Origin: Thozetella sp. PMI_491
Lineage: Eukaryota > Ascomycota > Sordariomycetes > Chaetosphaeriales > Chaetosphaeriaceae
DNA: 64,000 nucleotides
Assembly (NCBI GenBank): GCA_021432635.1
Contig: MU270022.1
Coordinates: 868,001-932,000 of the forward strand
Direction: 5' to 3'
Positions 16,505-52,260 of the stretch are shown here, piece by piece. The position numbers and the translations under genes were made by a program. Within the stretch, counting starts at the first letter, position 1, and every line of letters begins with the position of its first letter. The notes below the pieces were generated by a model that did not search any database, had not been told where the DNA came from, and worked only from the letters and a program-made list of their open reading frames with translations.

Positions 16505-17534
16505 ATGTCGCCCTCCCCAACTGCCCTTCTGCCCCAGGGAATTGTAGAAAGCCAGGCTGCTACCATATACGGGAAGGGCGAGACATTATTGAGGATAGGG
16601 TACGTTATTTCCGACCTGCAGCCATGAGCGACAACCACTGACAGGAACAACGCAGCAATGGAGGTGCTGGTAAAGCCTCCATCCCAAACTTATACTGCCA
16701 AACAAGACTGAGCCCGCTTGAATAGGCGCGACAGGACTTATCGAAGCTCTCGCCAACGATTACTTGTCCACGTTTCCGGAAGAACGGTCGATTGCCTGGG
16801 TGTGCAATCATTCGCTCAACTCGCAGGTAGCGCTGTACCGCAGATACGTCGATATTGCCCTGACCTACGAGCGAGACCGAGAAGAGCTGGCGGCGAACGA
16901 GGGATGGTCTCGCACGGCGGGTTGTATATGTCATGACCACTTTGTTCTGGCCGGGCCGCGATCCGACCCCGCCGGAGTAAGGGATGCGAAGAGTCTCGAG
17001 GAAGCCCTAGAGAGAATTGCAACGCGAAAAGCGTTATTTCACAGCCGTACGGACGGATCAGCGACAATGGTGAAGGAACGAGGTCTATGGTCCAGATGTC
17101 GACTTCAGCCATGGACGGACGATGCGTCATCATTCTGGTATAAAACGTCTCTGCTGAGCCCTGCGGAAGCTCTGAAGCAAGCAGCGGCCGCGGGTGCCTA
17201 CCTCTTGAACGACCGGTCCACGCTACTGAGGCAGACGGCGCTGAACACCATCTCTAACATTACAGTCTTCTTCGAGCCCCGGAGTTCTGATGACTATCTC
17301 ATGAACAGCTGCTATGCCGTATACTCGCCCCAGGCGAGGCCAGAAATTGTGGAGCGTATCTCCCATTTCCTAAACTACCTTGTCTCTGCGCGCGGACAGG
17401 GCGTAATAGCCTCGTTCGGCGTGGATAGCTGCGGTCTACCGCTCTTTGCTCCTGTAAAAGACGGGTTTGCCAAGACCCGGCTTGTTGGTGGCGAACCACT
17501 TGGGGGGCGATGGAAGCATAGGTCAATGCTTTGA
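16505..17534 (+). CDS. Solo periplasmic-binding-protein-type protein (TupA/tungstate-binding-like)
   Basis: Three exons join in phase: 16505..16599, a 14-nt microexon 16656..16669, and 16735..17534, giving 302 residues. The microexon restores LRIGNGGAGLIEALAND, a typical start of fungal proteins of this fold. Features of the TupA/PBP-like-2 family follow in order: VDIALTYERDREELA, CICHDHFVLAGPRSDPAG, a SRTDGSAT loop that would contact the ligand, a WYKTSLLSPAEALKQAAAAGAYLLNDRSTLL block, and AVYSPQARPEIVERISHFLNYL before the end. In bacteria such proteins deliver tungstate or other anions to an ABC importer. No signal peptide and no ABC permease are visible here, so the protein is probably intracellular and works without a transporter partner, perhaps as a ligand sensor or as an enzyme of the same fold. 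Bacterial origin is likely but old, since the gene has three fungal exons. Confidence 0.82.
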
Positions 17535-22318: not shown

Positions 22319-22978
22319 CTACTGGGAGACGCAGAGAACCTGGCCGGGCTGGATAAGGCAAGCCGAGTTCAAGGAAGGGTTCCAGGCCCGCAGCTGGGCC
22401 TCAGTGATACCGTACTTGGTCCAGATAGCCCAGCACGAGTCTCCGCTGACAACAGTGTAGGTCTGCTTGCACGAGCCGGTGCTGCCGCCTCCAGACGAAG
22501 TGCCGTCGGCAATAGACCAGTTCAGAACGTTGATCTGCGAAGCGTCGTTTGAAGGCTGGCCGAACTTGGTCCAGAGGTCGATGGTCATGTCGATCGAGCC
22601 CTGGGCACCGGCGTTGCGGTCGGCGACGGCAGCCTGCAGGGTAACACCGTTGACGGCGTTGGTCATGGTGATGATCTTGCCGCACAGGGTGTTGTGCTGG
22701 GCAGCTCCGTACTTGTCGAAGACGGCCTCTGGCATGGCGACAAGAGGCATGGAGTCGGGGACCACGCCCACGAAGTAGGTGCTCAGACCGCAGGATCCGA
22801 CCGTGTAGAAGACCTGGCGGGCCGATGCGGCATCCGCGAAGGAGTAAAGGGAACCGGGGTTAGTCCCGGTAATGGCGCGCTTCTGAAAGATAGAGAGGGC
22901 CTTGTCGGCGGCGACGGGGGCGGCGGCGGCAGTCGATGCCAGGCCGAGGGCCATACCGAGGAGAGTAGAGTACTGCAT
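22319..22978 (-). CDS. Secreted double-psi-barrel-like protein with C-terminal LysM domain
   Basis: A single exon of 219 residues. The ATG at 22978 is preferred over in-frame upstream sequence because it starts a clear signal peptide (MQYSTLLGMALGLASTAAAA). The middle (about 55-155) carries GSCGLSTYF, HNTLCGKIITM and a DLWTKFGQPSN helix, as in fungal barwin/expansin-like double-psi beta-barrel proteins. A Ser/Gly linker then leads to a LysM domain at about 170-218 (YTVVSGDSCWAIWTKYGIT, WNPSLNSACLIQPGQVLCV). LysM domains bind chitin or other N-acetylglucosamine polymers, so the protein probably acts on or hides the cell wall, or binds a partner's wall. A TATA-like TATAAGTA lies about 120 nt upstream (23096-23103) and three copies of a 10-bp repeat fill the leader. 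Confidence 0.85.
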   Translation of the reverse strand: MQYSTLLGMALGLASTAAAAPVAADKALSIFQKRAITGTNPGSLYSFADAASARQVFYTVGSCGLSTYFVGVVPDSMPLVAMPEAVFDKYGAAQHNTLCGKIITMTNAVNGVTLQAAVADRNAGAQGSIDMTIDLWTKFGQPSNDASQINVLNWSIADGTSSGGGSTGSCKQTYTVVSGDSCWAIWTKYGITEAQLRAWNPSLNSACLIQPGQVLCVSQ

Positions 22979-23004
22979 TTTTAGATAAGGAATGTGGTTT
23001 GAAA

Positions 23005-23042
23005 GTAAGGATTGTGGGTAAGGATTGTGGTGGTAAGGATTG
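23005..23042 (-). repeat. Triple 10-bp repeat in the 5' leader of the LysM gene
   Basis: GTAAGGATTG (plus strand) occurs at 23005-23014, 23018-23027 and 23033-23042, between the probable TATA box and the start codon. In the transcript it reads CAATCCTTAC. It may be a translation or RNA-stability element, or slippage product. Confidence 0.7.
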
Positions 23043-23095
23043 ACGATGGGGTGAAGACGAATTTCGAGATCTAGGCCAGAGCAGGCGCCGATCAA

Positions 23096-23103
23096 ATACT
23101 TAT
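23096..23103 (-). promoter_or_regulatory. TATA-like box of the LysM gene
   Basis: TATAAGTA on the minus strand lies about 120 nt upstream of the start codon at 22978, a usual distance for strongly expressed secreted-protein genes of filamentous fungi. Confidence 0.45.
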
Positions 23104-23159
23104 ACCGACTGCGGCTCTTCTCGTCTCCCCACGCCAAGCCGACGGGCCATCCACGCGCC

Positions 23160-29652: not shown

Positions 29653-30746
29653 CTAAGCACCATGGCTCGGTGCATTTGGCGACAACATTCCACCCGTGGG
29701 TGCATATGCACCTCGTGGCACATCCCTCTCGATCATTATCTCGTGAATTTGTTCAGTACCATTCTCCCGCACCATACCGGGATGGCTGGGGCTCCCTGGG
29801 CTCGCCATAGCTGCCGTGTCGAGCTCTGGATAGTTGCGCGGGTTACTCTCTACCTCGGTTGCAGTCCCGGTTGGTGCTAGGTTCGGATACATCGCCTTGA
29901 AGGCTGCGAAATCCTGCATGCTTGGGACATGGCTGCTTGGATTCCCGACCGTGACGGCTCCCGAGCCGGGGATATAACTCATCGGCCGTGGCTCCGATGA
30001 AGGAGGGAATGTATGGACGCCCGGCTGGGTCATTGAACCGCTGACATATCTCGCTCTGCGTTTAGAGACAATGTTCCTGCTGAAGAGCCATATGGATATG
30101 CCAGCAAAAACGAGAGTGGCGGCGCCGAGGGCTGCCCCAAGCCCAGCCATGGAGGCAACGCTGGGGATGCCTGAGGGTGAGGCGGTGACGGTAGCCGTTT
30201 GAACCACGACGATAGATGTCTGGCTATGCACAGTCACAGCGTACTCGGTTCCACAGCAGGTGAGATTGTTGCGGCCGCAGCAATACGTTCCATCAGTGCA
30301 TGGTGTGAGCTCCACGCTCCCATTCCGCGAGCCGCCCCACTGCAAGACCCATATCGATCAGCTTTCTGGCATAATTCATGATAGACACTGTGTTGTCTAT
30401 GAAGGCGTGTACTCACTTTCGGGTCCATGCAGACAGCAACGCATGCCGGGCTCTGCCACTGTGGGTCGGTGCAGTATTCTCGCCTGACAATACCGTCGCG
30501 GAGGCACAGGCCACTAGCGGTACACAAGTCTCTGCTGTCCGGGTCGCCGTCTAGGGCACAACAGCTGGAGTATATTCCCTGTTGCGTGATTCCGAGCTTA
30601 TTGCAAGGGACGTAGCTATCATTGGGGGCAATCGTCACGCCATCCGGGGCGTAGCACGTCACTTCCGCCGCGGGAGCACCAAGTAGACTCCGGCCAATAA
30701 TGCCGAACACCGCGATGCAAATGGATACGAAATGGATGAGAAACAT
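29653..30746 (-). CDS. Cys-rich single-pass surface protein of unknown function
   Basis: Two exons, complement(29653..30339, 30417..30746), join in phase 0 to 338 residues. The ATG at 30746 begins a signal peptide (MFLIHFVSICIAVFGIIG). An ectodomain of about 135 residues carries paired cysteines in the pattern CYAPDG, YVPCN, YSSCC, DLCTASGLCL, CTDPQW, CVAVC, then CTDGTYCCG and LTCCGT. A Val/Thr/Ser-rich stalk leads to one transmembrane helix (MAGLGAALGAATLVFAGISIWLF), a basic stop-transfer KRRAR and a Pro/Ser-rich cytosolic tail of about 120 residues. This layout is common among uncharacterised fungal membrane proteins; the function is unknown, though a wall or surface-sensing role fits the design. 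It is divergent from the Cys-repeat gene at 32276. Confidence 0.85.
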
Positions 30747-32275
30747 GTTGATGAATGTTCGGAAACGACAGTTAGCGGCGGTATCATGAATATTGATTGT
30801 GAGGTGGCGGATTGCCGGAGCCACAACCTGCACGGGAAAGTGATGTTTGGATAGGCTAACGAGGTGTTTCCTGAAACCGATTGGCACAGACCAAAGGTCT
30901 AGGCCCCGTGGAGGGCCAAAGATGCGGAGAGACGTCCCAAACACGCTCTGGGACGAAGGGTCTCCATCCCAGACTACCTTGAGTGCCAACGTCAAGATTG
31001 TAGGTACGCAATGGGGGAGTGATTCTTGCGGGAGCCTTCGGGAGTTTCACCGCACCGACCAGGCCCCCGGGGATGGCATTAGCGGTGCTTGGGTGACAGC
31101 GCTGCGGAGCAGGACAGCCGATATATCGGCGTAGGTCTCGTGATGGCGCGCAAGCTTGTTCTCGGAAAGCACATCTCGGGTCTCCCCAGGAATTGTTCCA
31201 GGAGAGGACACCCAGTCATAAGAAGGGGTGGATGTGAGACGAATTTGGCACAGCCGTCTGTGTGTGGGCAGGGAAGAGCGGTTCGCTAATTTAGTTCGTC
31301 TACAATCCCTCGAGTCAAGATGGTTGAGCCGCACTAGCTTGACCCACTGCTCGCTAGACAAGGCTTCTCTAAAGAAAGAAGCGCTCGGTCACTAGTTGGG
31401 CATGCTATCTAACGATCCGCCCTTGGACAATACCGAACACGAGTACTACCAAAGCAAAGTAATTGGGTAAGCTGTTCAACGACTGGCAGGTACATTATCA
31501 TGTGTTCTCCTCGCGGTCGGATTAGAGGTGGCAGCATTGGTCTGCATAATATTAAAGATTTTGAACATGAAGTAGCATGTTTTGAGGCCCTGGGTACGCT
31601 TTTGTGTTAAGAAGTCAATTTAATGGTACAGACAATTACACAAAGTCATGTTTACTTATCTATCTTCCAATTTAACGTACCATATTCTCAAGGACTATCT
31701 CTAAATACCTAGACTATAACGGAAAGCAAGGTGTGCAGTAAGGATATTTACATGCCTAAGCAACATCACTGTGGCCGCGTTAACACCAGCAGATAAATCT
31801 ATTTACCGAGCACGACGGACACTATACACTGCATCTCAGTGGGAACTGTAGTCCTGAAGTCCTGTGGATGTCAGTGGTTGGTTCTGGCCTATCATTTTGC
31901 ACTGGGTGAGACAAGGGGAAGAAACTCGCCACACTTATCCCTGCCAAGCTCCGTTGGAATTTCTTTCCTCAGTAAGCCGAGGTGCTATGCCCCTTACCTT
32001 GGATCGCCATGGCACCTAACATGTAAGGATTAAGACGAAAAGGACAAACCAGGGAGGCCTCTGGCACAATTTGCCTATCCATCCAATCCAGCCGACTAGG
32101 AATGCTACGGAGCCTGGGAAGGTGCCGTATCGCCGAGAACGGTGAGAGACGTTATAAAAGCTCCAATCCAAGTCCGTATTAACAGTTGACAAAGTTGGTG
32201 CGTCTTTTTCTCCATTACCGTTCGCAAATCTGCCCAGCGGGTGCACAGCTTCCTTCAACAGCCAACCGTATTCTC
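30747..32275. promoter_or_regulatory. Divergent intergenic region with TATA box of the Cys-repeat gene
   Basis: It separates two divergent genes. A perfect TATAAAAG at 32153-32160, 116 nt before the ATG at 32276, is a strong core promoter for the rightward gene. The rest (about 31.0-32.1 kb) holds no supportable gene. Confidence 0.55.
32153..32160 (+). promoter_or_regulatory. TATA box of the Cys-repeat gene
   Basis: TATAAAAG matches the eukaryotic TATA consensus exactly and lies 116 nt upstream of the start codon at 32276. Confidence 0.6.
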
Positions 32276-33267
32276 ATGACAATGAAGTTCATGACCGCAG
32301 CTTTTCTCACCTTGGTGACGAGCACTGCTGCCATTCCCCTTCAGCAGAATGCCGTCGAAGCTACCTATCCAACTGATACCACCGCGTCTGATGGCGGAAA
32401 ACTGCATGTAAACCTAGATTGGCATAGCATTTGCACCCGGAATACTAACAAATCCTAGGCCTGAACTAGTGTGTAGTGATATCTGCCTTACAGCGAGGCC
32501 GATGTGTCCCCTAACACATGCGATTACTCGAAGGGTATGTTAATAGTTTGTTCTTCACCTTGATCAATACGAAGACTACCGCCTTGTGACTAAATGATTT
32601 GAATATCAGGGGGGTTGCTGGAGCTGCTGTCCACGTCCTATGCCAGCCTGTCTCGCCGTCTGTCAGACTGTGAAGCCAAACTGCACAGTGGGAGAGGCAC
32701 CTACAGGAGTGGTATGAAATCCCTTTACTCTTAGATCAAAATGGAGGAGATACCTCAGTCACTGACATGGCGAATTCGATAGGAGGGATGCTGGGGTTGC
32801 TGTCGACCAGTCCCGCCACCTATTCCGAACCCACCAATAGCACCGAAATTCTGTGCCGACGTCTGCCTGACTACAAAGCCTAACTGCACACTAGGCGAGG
32901 CGCCGACTGGAGGGGTAATGCCCCAAACATTTTATACTTTGAAGTCAGAGCATCCCAGCCGCTGACACAAGGGCTTTACTAGGAAGGGTGCTGGGGTTGC
33001 TGCCAACCCATTCCACCACCTAGTTCGACGCTCACTCTGAAACCCTTTCCAGACCCTTCTCCGGAACCCGTAGCCTGTACTGATGTCTGCCGAGACAAGC
33101 GGCCTGTGTGTGCAGCGAATGAGAAAGCAACCGGAATGGTCCGTCACATCGAGAGATCCCTTCAAATTTCCGTCATCAAGACTCGGCTGCTAACCTAAAT
33201 ACTGAGATAGGAGGGTTGTTGGGGCTGTTGCGAACCTCATTTTCCGCCGATATTGCCGAGGGACTAA
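32276..33267 (+). CDS. Secreted protein made of exon-encoded GCW-x-CC cysteine repeats
   Basis: Exon 1 (32276..32407) encodes a signal peptide (MTMKFMTAAFLTLVTSTAAIP) and a short pro-like region. Then follow repeat exons, all starting and ending in phase 0: about 32460..32534, 32610..32711, 32783..32914, 32983..33138 and 33211..33267. Four of them begin GGCWSCC, EGCWGCC, EGCWGCC and EGCWGCC. The first three of these, and the partial first module, carry a second block C-x3-C ... (K/R)P-x-C (CADVCLTTKPNC, CTDVCRDKRPVC, CLAVCQTVKPNC, CSDICLTARPMC), usually closing with APTG or ATG. A Pro-rich spacer of variable length (PPPIPNPP, PPPSSTLTLK) lies between. Each module thus has six cysteines. The total is about 217 residues. 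The join of exon 1 to exon 2 is unresolved: the obvious donor (32408) and acceptor (32458) leave the frames off by one. The donor of exon 5 is a weak GTCCGT. I do not recognise the family. A strong TATA box supports expression. Confidence 0.75.
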
Positions 33268-33433: not shown

Positions 33434-35029
33434 CTAACTTGGTTGTTGTTTACACTCGATGTTTAAAAGAGTCATGCTGACTTTCTCTCCAAATGCCATT
33501 ACTTCTTCCCGACTAAGTGTTACAGCGACTGTCCAAAAACGTACTCCAACCTCGACTTCAGTAATATTGTCCATATTGAGAATCCCGGGAAAGTCGATGT
33601 TGAGGTCCGTCCAACGTAACGCCCGATTGGCATCCCTATGCCGGAAAAGATAAGCCTCCTGCTCGGGATAATTCATGGCTGGAAAGATACAGGCGCGGCA
33701 TGACTCTCTAATATGGTTGATCAAGACGACGAATAGAACTTCCTCTCCGTGTAGTGTCAAGCCAAAATGCACAGCACGGACTATATTCGGTGAATTTGGG
33801 TAGAAGAGTAAATCTGTACTATCCCAAAGAATGCGTGGGATGGTGGAATGGATTTTCCCCGGGATACATATCCGCACGCCGTGCTCACGAAACTTCGAGA
33901 GCGTACCATGATCTGGAATTACTGCACTTGTCATGGTATAGAATGTCGACGTGGAGGCTGCTGGGAGGAAGGCCCGTTCCTTGTGGCTCAGCCTGCTCAT
34001 GTTGCGAGATTGGCGAAGGAAAAGAGCTGGCCCGATTTTTCTCAGGTGGATGCACAAAAGTAAAGTTTCATCGTAGGCGAAAAGCCCTACTGGCAACACA
34101 TAATCCTTGCCGGCGTTATAGTGAATAGGACTACTGGAAGGCACCTCATAGAGATAATCCTCGATTCTGAGGCCCTTGTTTGTGAGGACAAATTCAGGGT
34201 TGTAATTGTAGATCTCCCATGGGACAACCTTTCCGCAACCAGCATATTCTGCCGGTGATGACGCAAGCAAGCTGCAGTGATCGTCTTGTTTCTGACTGGG
34301 AGTGGCGTTCCAGGCAAAAATGGTGGTATCGTTGCTGCGCTTGACAATTTCCTCTTGTAGGCGCCCGAATGCCATCAAACCTTCGCCGTAGATGAGTGGC
34401 ATATTAACCTCAAAGATTCCGAGAAGACAATATGCCGCATCCTCAATTCGGGTCGTACTCCTCTGGGCAGCCCAGGACATCCTCTGAGCTACTGAATATT
34501 GATAGACTTTCTTGTGCATGAGGAGGAGGTCGACAGGAATACCCGTTGCGCCCGAAAGTTCAGAGCCGAAGGTAGCTTTGGTACCACGGAACTTCCAAGC
34601 CTGATCATAGAAGTGCAGAGTTAATGGGGCAATTAACTCCTGGAGTGTCCAGCCTCGCGTGATCCACTTACACCTCCCGATGCCATCCTGGAATCCGATG
34701 GAGGGATGGAGATCGGCGAGAAAGACGTAGCACACTGCCGCCTCCCTGTACCATTCAAACATGGAGTTAATGCTCTCGGTCAGCTCTGCGCTACTGCTTT
34801 TATCGATACAACAAGTGTCGACCCAAGCGTACTCGATACTATTATCCAAAGCCAAGCGGCATGTTTCCGTAATCTTCTTGTACCCCCTTTTCCGAGGTAG
34901 GTACGGCTGCGCCATATCCTGAAAGGTGACCTCTTCAGCCTCCCAAGTATGTGACAGAATTGCGTAAGGTGGAAGGCCCTCACGGTCGAAGTCCTCGAAC
35001 CGGAGCGTTCTCGCATTGACCAGTCTCAT
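33434..35029 (-). CDS. HET-domain protein (heterokaryon incompatibility type)
   Basis: A single exon of 531 residues. The three HET blocks are clear: YAILSHTWE at 22-30, YAWVDTCCIDKSSSAELTES at 68-87 and CKWITRGWTLQELIAP at 120-135, followed by RIEDAAYCLLGIFEVNMPLIYGEG, typical of the HET-D/E/R-like subgroup. In Podospora and Neurospora such domains trigger cell death when fused cells are genetically different. In HET-D/E proteins a NACHT-WD40 part follows; here the C-terminal 300 residues have neither, so this is a stand-alone HET protein. The domain is encoded without introns. It is the first of three HET genes in the right half of the window. Confidence 0.95.
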   Translation of the reverse strand: MRLVNARTLRFEDFDREGLPPYAILSHTWEAEEVTFQDMAQPYLPRKRGYKKITETCRLALDNSIEYAWVDTCCIDKSSSAELTESINSMFEWYREAAVCYVFLADLHPSIGFQDGIGRCKWITRGWTLQELIAPLTLHFYDQAWKFRGTKATFGSELSGATGIPVDLLLMHKKVYQYSVAQRMSWAAQRSTTRIEDAAYCLLGIFEVNMPLIYGEGLMAFGRLQEEIVKRSNDTTIFAWNATPSQKQDDHCSLLASSPAEYAGCGKVVPWEIYNYNPEFVLTNKGLRIEDYLYEVPSSSPIHYNAGKDYVLPVGLFAYDETLLLCIHLRKIGPALFLRQSRNMSRLSHKERAFLPAASTSTFYTMTSAVIPDHGTLSKFREHGVRICIPGKIHSTIPRILWDSTDLLFYPNSPNIVRAVHFGLTLHGEEVLFVVLINHIRESCRACIFPAMNYPEQEAYLFRHRDANRALRWTDLNIDFPGILNMDNITEVEVGVRFWTVAVTLSREEVMAFGEKVSMTLLNIECKQQPS

Positions 35030-44119: not shown

Positions 44120-44930
44120 ATGAAGCTTCTCTCCCTCTTCCCTTTCGTGGCGGCGGCCATGGCTTTTCCAAGCCGATCCACCGAGACTCTGCCCTATGTC
44201 TCTCCCCTTCCCGGCGACTCTCGCAGTCCTTGTCCAGGACTCAATGCTCTTGCCAACCATGGGTATCTGTATGTTTAATATCACTCCTGGATTTCATGAT
44301 TATCTCTGGGTGGATGTCGCTGACCATACCAACAGTCCACATGACGGCCGGAACATCACTGGGCCAATGATGGTCGCCGCGTTCTCTAAGGCCATGAACT
44401 TCGACGAAGCCGTGTCTCAAGCTGCGGTTGACACTAATTTTAAAGGCATTGGCGTAAATCAGTCCGTTGGAGTTGATTTGGAGGTTTTCTTTGTGCCCAA
44501 TGTGACCGACGCGCGATGCTCCGTGGCCCGCGACGACTACCAAAAGCCTCTCAATCCTGCACGGGTTTCCTATGCACTAAATCAAACCTGTGGGAGCTCC
44601 GTTACCCCAGATTCGTGGGGGAAAGTCCGCGTCGCTATCGAGGCCTTGACCACCGACCCACCACCGTACGACAAAGACATTGCAGGTGGCGAAGGCACTG
44701 GTGCGCTTATGTTCCTTTCCACCTCAGAAAACTCGCATCCCGACGACGGCGACTATGCTAGTGTCCGCTCGCGCAAGGATTGGATTATGATGTTTATGGC
44801 TGAGGACCGTTTTCCGATTGAGCTGGGCTGGAAGCCACAGGCGGTTTCCCCCAAATTGGTCGATCTGGGCAGCATTCTCGGCGTGATCGCGGCTGGTAGA
44901 TCTAAGGCACTGGCCGCGTTAGGTCACTGA
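44120..44930 (+). CDS. Secreted heme-thiolate peroxidase-like protein (chloroperoxidase family)
   Basis: Two exons, 44120..44268 and 44336..44930, join in phase to 247 residues. A signal peptide (MKLLSLFPFVAAAMAFP) is followed by the family signature SPCPGLNALANHGYLPHDGRNI at about 36-57, where Cys38 would bind the heme iron; the intron lies inside NHGYL. The C-terminal block WIMMFMAEDRFPIELGWKP also fits the family (the 'ER.P..LGW' region). Between them, however, the expected Glu-His-Asp motif (EHDASLSR-like, with the acid-base glutamate) is not visible; the region reads VDLEVFFVPNVTDARCSV. Members of this family use hydrogen peroxide to halogenate or oxygenate substrates. Activity of this copy is doubtful without the glutamate. 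Confidence 0.85.
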
Positions 44931-51576: not shown

Positions 51577-52260
51577 ATGGCCGGCAAACCAATCTACCGC
51601 AACCCGCTCAACTCGGCAGAATCTGTTGCAGATTGGGTTGCCGAGGGCCCAGTGCAAGCCACCTCTGCTCTCAGCGGTGACGCCGTAGAGCTCAAATCCA
51701 GCGGCGGCCTCGATGACCACTTCACTTTCTGGTGTCCCGAATTGTTTCCTGATCGAGTTAAAATAACATGGGAATTCTCGGCGATCGAAGAACCCGGTCT
51801 GGCCATGTTCTTCTTCGGCGCCTCTTCCGTCGCTGGTGAAGGCATCTTTGACTTTGACAAAGGAATAAAACCACGCACCGGCGCATACCCCCAGTACCAT
51901 TCCAGCGACATACGGACTCTGCATGTCTCCTACTTTCGGCGGCGATGGGAGGACGAGCGCGCATTTCATACTTGTAATTTGCGCAAGTCGCCCGGCTTCC
52001 ATCTCGTCTCACAAGGTGCCGACCCCCTGCCACCTGTCGTGGACACGAAGGGTGCATTCTATAAGATCGAAGTTATCAAAGATGGAAGCCGTGTTCAGTT
52101 TTCTATTGAGGGGCTGAAGCTGTTTGAATGGAATGATGACGGAAAGTCCACCGGCCCGATTGTCGGAGGGGGACGAATTGGCTTCAGGCAGATGTCACCG
52201 CTTGTGGCCAGGTATCGAAATTTAGAAGTTTGGGAGCTCGACACGCAGTTTGCTAATTGA
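51577..52260 (+). CDS. DUF1961-like protein (concanavalin-A-type fold)
   Basis: A single exon of 227 residues without signal peptide. The pattern is that of the DUF1961 family: IYRNPLNSAESVADWVAEG at the start, DDHFTFWCPELFPDRVKITWEFS, FDKGIKPRTGAYPQYHSSDI, SYFRRRW, FHTCNLRKSPGF, and a last strand pair GGGRIGFRQMSPLVARYRNLEVWEL. The repeated Trp/Phe strands and the closing 'G.IGFRQM..L.A.Y.N..V' fit a jelly-roll fold used to bind or cleave polysaccharides. The reaction is not established to my knowledge and I do not assign one. It converges on the peptidase gene with only 175 bases between. Confidence 0.8.
   Translation: MAGKPIYRNPLNSAESVADWVAEGPVQATSALSGDAVELKSSGGLDDHFTFWCPELFPDRVKITWEFSAIEEPGLAMFFFGASSVAGEGIFDFDKGIKPRTGAYPQYHSSDIRTLHVSYFRRRWEDERAFHTCNLRKSPGFHLVSQGADPLPPVVDTKGAFYKIEVIKDGSRVQFSIEGLKLFEWNDDGKSTGPIVGGGRIGFRQMSPLVARYRNLEVWELDTQFAN

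Follow-up and report, generated by a model that had tools for sequence, protein, structure and literature searches.

Does each exon of a serially repeated, cysteine-rich gene encode one complete repeat, or do the repeats lie across the exon junctions? The question is raised by a gene at positions 32276–33267 (+ strand) of a 64,000-nucleotide (nt) stretch of Thozetella sp. PMI_491 (contig MU270022.1, positions 868,001–932,000), called the window here. A preliminary description of the window had read this gene as a signal-peptide exon followed by serial phase-0 exons, each carrying one cysteine module. We find that the gene is very probably real, though partly misread in that description: all 24 cysteines of the predicted protein fall in four 28-residue units of identical spacing, C-x3-C-x6-C-x11-C-W-x-C-C, and every one of these units is interrupted by an intron. 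Our overall reading, to which we assign a probability of about 0.62, is that of a six-exon gene for a secreted 'beads on a string' protein, in which four units act as a multivalent binder and the array grew by phase-0 exon duplication. Its core, the four-unit and split-unit gene architecture, is highly likely from the sequence.

The repeat unit and the exons that encode it

Read from the window sequence, the gene extends on the + strand from an ATG at 32276 to a TAA at 33265–33267, and its six-exon spliced model yields a predicted product of 216 amino acids with 24 cysteines in a frame without a stop. The units begin at residues 48, 82, 126 and 178, and there is no cysteine elsewhere in the protein. 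Cys-free linkers separate them, 6, 16 and 24 residues in length; these are Pro-rich and variable, as the preliminary description had said of the spacing between modules. Each of the four units is cut by a phase-0 intron (introns 2–5) two codons before its fourth cysteine, C4, and the distance from C3 to C4 across the intron is exactly 11 residues in all four cases. Because spacing is constant inside the units and variable between them, the pattern of a domain with linkers, the unit spans the exon junction; and since the units are split at the same residue, exons 3–5 are cassettes of a back half, a linker and a front half. Units 2 and 3 are closest, sharing 22 of 28 residues (12–16 in the remaining pairs), and units 2, 3 and 4 all end in the same seven residues, EGCWGCC. 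Each unit is predicted to hold three disulfides. The elements of the model are as follows.

32153–32158, + strand: TATA box (TATAAA), a sequence match only, 123 nt 5′ of the first ATG
32276–32403, + strand: exon 1, signal peptide (MTMKFMTAAFLTLVTSTAA...) then Cys-free spacer; ends at 32403 (GC donor) or 32385 (GT donor)
32404–32458 (GC-AG, 55 nt) or 32386–32458 (GT-AG, 73 nt), + strand: intron 1, phase 2, with a common acceptor and ACTAAC upstream
32459–32534, + strand: exon 2, encodes VCSDICLTARPMC and carries the front half of unit 1 (PELVCSDICLTARPMCPLTHAITRR); 'N-type'
32535–32609, + strand: intron 2, 75 nt, GTATGT...CAG, phase 0
32610–32711, + strand: exon 3, unit 1 back half, linker, unit 2 front half; 'CN-type'
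32712–32782, + strand: intron 3, 71 nt, GTATGA...TAG, phase 0
32783–32914, + strand: exon 4, unit 2 back half, Pro-rich linker, unit 3 front half; 'CN-type'
32915–32982, + strand: intron 4, 68 nt, GTAATG...TAG, phase 0
32983–33138, + strand: exon 5, unit 3 back half, Pro-rich linker, unit 4 front half; 'CN-type'
33139–33210, + strand: intron 5, 72 nt, GTCCGT...TAG, phase 0
33211–33267, + strand: exon 6, unit 4 back half, Pro-rich tail, stop TAA; 'C-type'
32472–32630 (32472–32534 plus 32610–32630), + strand: unit 1, residues 48–75, CSDICLTARPMCPLTHAITRRGGCWSCC
32649–32803 (32649–32711 plus 32783–32803), + strand: unit 2, residues 82–109, CLAVCQTVKPNCTVGEAPTGVEGCWGCC
32852–33003 (32852–32914 plus 32983–33003), + strand: unit 3, residues 126–153, CADVCLTTKPNCTLGEAPTGGEGCWGCC
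33076–33231 (33076–33138 plus 33211–33231), + strand: unit 4, residues 178–205, CTDVCRDKRPVCAANEKATGMEGCWGCC

Much of the preliminary description carries over into this model. The signal-peptide-like first exon is retained, as are the following exons joined at phase-0 introns (introns 2–5); four exons, starting at 32610, 32783, 32983 and 33211, indeed open with (E/G)GCW-x-CC; and the first three of these (exons 3, 4 and 5) do carry the C-x3-C...(K/R)P-x-C block. What falls away is the equation of a module with an exon, as exons 3–5 each run from midway through one unit to midway through the following one, together with a gene model that missed coding exon 2 (32459–32534) by placing it inside a supposed first intron. 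The description had also cited a TATA box as a sign of strong expression: the TATAAA at 32153 is present, but a TATA box is no indication of how strongly a gene is expressed. The ATG at 32276 is the first to follow it, with a second ATG at 32282 as a possible alternative start, and the predicted secreted protein would measure about 210–216 amino acids.

The frequency of these patterns by chance was gauged with 50 base shuffles, reading all six frames of the window. The window has four occurrences of CW-x-CC, all of them in this gene; the shuffles averaged 0.14, with at most 2. C-x3-C-x6-C occurs eight times, namely in the four units, as one spurious overlapping match in exon 3 and at three sites outside the gene (shuffles: mean 2.42, maximum 6). 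The front block C-x3-C-x6-C alone is not rare, and four exact units together are: on shuffling the protein from residue 43 on, the exact six-cysteine spacing appeared once in 15 of 20,000 shuffles and never twice, compared with the four copies observed.

Exons 3, 4 and 5, each with a phase-0 intron on either side, are permuted units. There are seven ways to omit one or more of these exons; all preserve the frame and, for k exons omitted, leave 4 − k whole units, in agreement with the earlier suggestion that the number of units could change in frame. Duplication of one symmetric phase-0 exon, likewise suggested from the outset, is the best explanation of the array, which would have grown by duplicating the cassette of back half, linker and front half with its flanking intron. 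Around their starts, exons 4 and 5 are 71% similar over 73 nt, with 36 of 46 bases matching in the exon part. The array escaped Tandem Repeats Finder, which is consistent with the copies being old.

Export, relatives and proposed function

By hydropathy, the most hydrophobic stretch of the protein is residues 5–15 (mean 1.89; the best 11-residue window after residue 40 reaches 1.54), and the best 19-residue window scores 1.37 at the N-terminus versus 0.91 after residue 40. From this signal-like N-terminus, the lack of a later, equally hydrophobic 19-residue stretch and the arrangement of the cysteines in closed sets of six, we infer an exported protein with disulfides. The product belongs to the broad class of secreted small cysteine-rich proteins, with a signal-like N-terminus by hydropathy, no anchor and 24 cysteines in 216 amino acids. 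In the mechanism that we propose, the signal peptide would export a protein composed of a short Cys-free spacer, four units, Pro-rich linkers and a Pro-rich tail. The invariant Trp/Pro/Gly surface of every unit would contact one common ligand outside the cell, candidates being a wall polysaccharide of fungus or host, or the surface of a host or microbe; the reach of the units would be set by the linkers. A multivalent binder is the simplest reading because similar surfaces are repeated on Pro-rich linkers; taken alone, this function may be given somewhat less than an even chance.

A more conventional account is compatible with this explanation and appears reasonably likely in its own right: the protein could be a member of an existing fungal family, with uncharacterised orthologues in related ascomycetes, and be an apoplastic effector or cell-wall protein of ordinary type. 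Such orthologues are expected to exist. Against such a family stands the lack of a match even at loose thresholds in Pfam (whole protein or exon 4, E ≤ 5), in the bacterial and archaeal library NCBIfam (whole protein, E ≤ 10) and among PDB sequences (protein or four-unit profile, E ≤ 10), and within these three resources the preliminary remark that no named family with this motif was known holds. The unit spacing as written was not found in a literature text search, which does not prove that the unit is unpublished, and no family with this unit occurs among the titles and abstract starts of the literature searched. Literature matches to the motif letters were, by title, mostly bacterial community studies and were taken as primer strings.

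The sequence collections that we searched were prokaryote, viral, plasmid and phage collections, none of them meant to hold fungi. With an alignment of the exons as query, 168 pattern matches in viral contigs and 23 in genome contigs were obtained, none of which was confirmed. With an alignment of the units, none of 160 pattern matches in viral contigs was confirmed, and 417 pattern matches in genome contigs led to six confirmed Rhizobiales loci, aligned over query residues 20–32 only. All six contain the same RRCGGCWSCC stretch, without a C-x3-C-x6-C in the preceding 60 residues, and were judged chance matches; the stretch sits in a long open frame, 220–1300 amino acids from stop to stop, that may or may not be coding. 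When the spliced protein was compared by tblastn with 72,556 plasmid and 50,697 phage records, nothing matched at E ≤ 1.

Progranulin and granulin of animals and slime moulds, like the protein described here, consist of tandem cysteine-rich secreted modules that are typically split by introns. In progranulin, CN exons consist of a C-half linked by a Cys-free joiner to an N-half, and module number differs between species (PMC4527844). In the notation of that source (PMC4527844) the exon layout here is s-n-cn-cn-cn-c, and the CN-exon layout is shared in the predicted model, in which four of four units are split and exons 3–5 are of CN type. The granulin motif has 12 cysteines, whereas the units here have six, C-x3-C-x6-C-x11-C-x2-CC, with no Pfam match at the threshold given above; the likeness is therefore one of gene design, not of membership.

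Among fungi, repeat-containing secreted proteins are a known kind (PMC4617103). Cin1 of Venturia inaequalis, a candidate effector, is likewise a fungal protein of tandem imperfect repeats (PMC4617103, PMC5412055), but its eight repeats measure 52–64 amino acids with a helix-loop-helix core, as compared with 28-residue six-cysteine units and linkers here. Neither the protein nor the unit profile matched the PDB sequences, a set whose inclusion of 2LHT (Cin1) was unchecked. Multi-domain hydrophobins of the trihydrophobin type also combine several cysteine-rich modules in one secreted fungal protein. The hydrophobin domain has eight cysteines in the order C-CC-C-C-CC-C; membership was rejected for the units here, which have six cysteines with one CC pair (C-C-C-C-CC) and no match in Pfam. 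The unit seems to be one for which no name was found, in a split-unit design of a known general kind. A bolder proposal, which we put forward tentatively and consider doubtful, is that the unit may be an undescribed minimal six-cysteine fungal domain carried in progranulin-type split-module cassettes of independent origin, the number of units varying between strains or by exon skipping and the units never being broken.

In one alternative, the protein is a precursor of small disulfide peptides, with linkers cleaved outside the cell and single units acting as antimicrobial or signalling peptides. The units are compact and self-contained, with six cysteines each, the linkers are Cys-free and of variable length, and progranulin modules of similar layout are freed by proteolysis (PMC4527844). 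KEX2-processed repeat proteins (KEPs) are likewise secreted fungal precursors of repeated units (PMC6339444, PMC9769878, PMC7329392); their peptide cores are flanked by Kex2 sites, in contrast to the linkers here, which contain no KR or RR pairs. The protein has only two dibasic pairs, RR inside unit 1 and KR followed by Pro inside unit 4, and KEP membership was rejected on this count; the absence of repeated Kex2 sites therefore counts against a precursor of the KEP type. Resistance to proteolysis is common in Pro-rich linkers, a further point against release of single units, and we regard the precursor as unlikely.

Splice choices and coding signal

The model of the preliminary description, in which the signal exon is joined straight to 32610, each exon is a module and exon 2 is intronic, is less probable still. 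It has a possible donor in GTAAAC at 32408, a phase-0 GT whose join to 32610 is in frame and gives 192 amino acids, and the resulting 202-nt first intron is inside the range given for introns of Fusarium core genes, 42–529 nt, where first introns are longer, with a mean of about 93 nt (PMC5677156). An exon-2-skipped form could exist as an isoform. The splice leaves, however, an odd number of cysteines (21), three whole units and one orphan half, and its 202-nt intron compares with introns of 55–75 nt in the full model. Moreover, the exon that it discards has a conserved cysteine block at a spacing identical to that of the other units, and 10 of the 21 front-half residues that exon 2 contributes to unit 1 are common with unit 3.

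Introns 2–5 of the full, four-unit model were picked by frame and GT-AG ends before the unit spacing was seen; exon 2 was added after its cysteine block had been noticed. We then counted the in-frame, stop-free choices open to each intron, allowing GT-AG introns of at least 40 nt with donors from 30 nt inside the exon onward. Introns 2 and 4 have one choice each in the tested range, and both yield the x11 spacing. For intron 3 there are six choices, of which one, with donor GTATGA, keeps four units, and for intron 5 one of two does so. Introns 3, 4 and 5 each have a branch-like CTRAY motif that starts 21 nt from the intron end; in intron 1 the corresponding distance is 14 nt, and in intron 2 no such motif was found.

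Intron 1 is freer, with eight GT or GC donor–acceptor choices that preserve both the frame and the four units. Two of the eight have GT donors (32354–32417 and 32386–32458), and the idea of a GC donor as the sole route to exon 2 was dropped. The forms 32404–32458 (donor GCATGT) and 32386–32458 (donor GTCTGA) seem most plausible from the sequence; their products differ in the Cys-free spacer, by six residues. In one survey, 1.009% of fungal introns were of the GC-AG type (PMC7072748), and according to another source one gene predictor does not recognise them (PMC5677156). Two candidate donors stand four bases apart at 32404–32411, GCATGT at 32404 and GTAAAC at 32408. With acceptor 32458, the donor at 32404 gives the full protein and the GT at 32408 runs into an immediate stop (a 45-amino-acid product); joined to 32610, the donor at 32408 gives the exon-2-skipped form. 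This pair could be a splicing switch, or merely a weak site.

Comparison of the units at the codon level points to a maintained reading frame. The proportion of synonymous differences (pS) exceeded that of nonsynonymous differences (pN) in six of six unit pairs over all 28 codons (pS 0.54–0.88, pN 0.13–0.35), with two of the six synonymous distances (dS) saturated in this comparison, and did so again in all six when the six cysteine codons were excluded (pS 0.49–0.81, pN 0.17–0.46). Restricting the comparison to the 18 non-cysteine codons of the front half gave pS 0.44–0.73 and pN 0.21–0.53, units 2 and 3 being the sole clear pair (0.44 versus 0.21), and the selection signal in the non-cysteine codons of exon 2 is weak. 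Ten residues are invariant across the units and eight of their ten codons differ at the third base; that these codons show no first- or second-base change follows nearly from the invariance itself. The 18 other codons vary about equally by codon position (15, 13 and 14). On these few compared sites, the reading frame is probably under selection. A pseudogene or a set of chance open frames, for which the imperfect donors of introns 1 and 5 and the weak selection signal outside the cysteines of units 1 and 4 could be cited, is very improbable in view of pS exceeding pN in every pair, with or without cysteines, and of a spliced model that has no stop, no odd cysteine and four exact units.

Several observations nevertheless weigh against a secreted four-unit binder built by exon duplication. 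Intron 1 is the weak point of the gene model, its donor being imperfect in either favoured form (GCATGT or GTCTGA), and the donor of intron 5, GTCCGT, is imperfect as well. Identifying the units from their cysteines depresses pN by construction and so inflates the selection signal over 28 codons, and for front-half non-cysteine codons pS and pN are nearly equal in units 1 and 2 (0.57 and 0.52) and in units 2 and 4 (0.56 and 0.53). In the comparison of exon 4 and 5 starts, the intron part matches weakly, at 16 of 27 bases, and because branch and splice motifs are included, this similarity lends weak support to joint copying of intron and exon. Finally, no relative beyond the chance Rhizobiales stretch was found in the prokaryote, virus, plasmid and phage collections, an absence that says little because these were not meant to hold fungi.

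Neighbouring genes and implications

Several neighbours of the gene were identified in the window. A HET-domain protein (33434–35029, − strand; PF06985, E 1.8e-12) converges on it, with 166 bases between the two stop codons, and an RTA1-like protein is also present by Pfam match; together with the short introns, these two neighbours mark the gene as one of a filamentous fungus. On the other side, at 29653–30995 (− strand), two overlapping open frames resemble, by eye, one intron-split gene whose candidate product would have a cysteine-rich ectodomain followed by a single hydrophobic segment; neither frame matches Pfam. About 9 kb away, at 22319–23137 (− strand), lies a gene whose secreted-looking product, possibly another surface protein, carries a LysM domain at its C-terminus (PF01476, E 4.4e-16). 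Further Pfam matches are a PBP_like_2 domain at 16764–17534 (+ strand; PF12849, E 8.6e-9), a periplasmic-binding-protein-like match in a fungal window, and Peroxidase family 2 at 44196–44930 (+ strand; PF01328, E 1.5e-6). A DUF1961 protein is encoded at 51577–52260 (+ strand; PF09224, E 8.9e-100); the family is largely bacterial, and the gene might have been acquired by transfer.

Genes of this kind carry a caution for annotation, as an exon-based reading can misplace domain boundaries and miss an exon behind a weak donor. If the model holds, the Thozetella gene would be a compact example of a split domain on symmetric exons that allows safe change of unit number in a secreted repeat protein, a design that animals use in progranulin and that would occur here in a fungus, built on an unrelated unit. 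The gene could then serve to test how unit number varies between isolates and to study a small unnamed disulfide domain.
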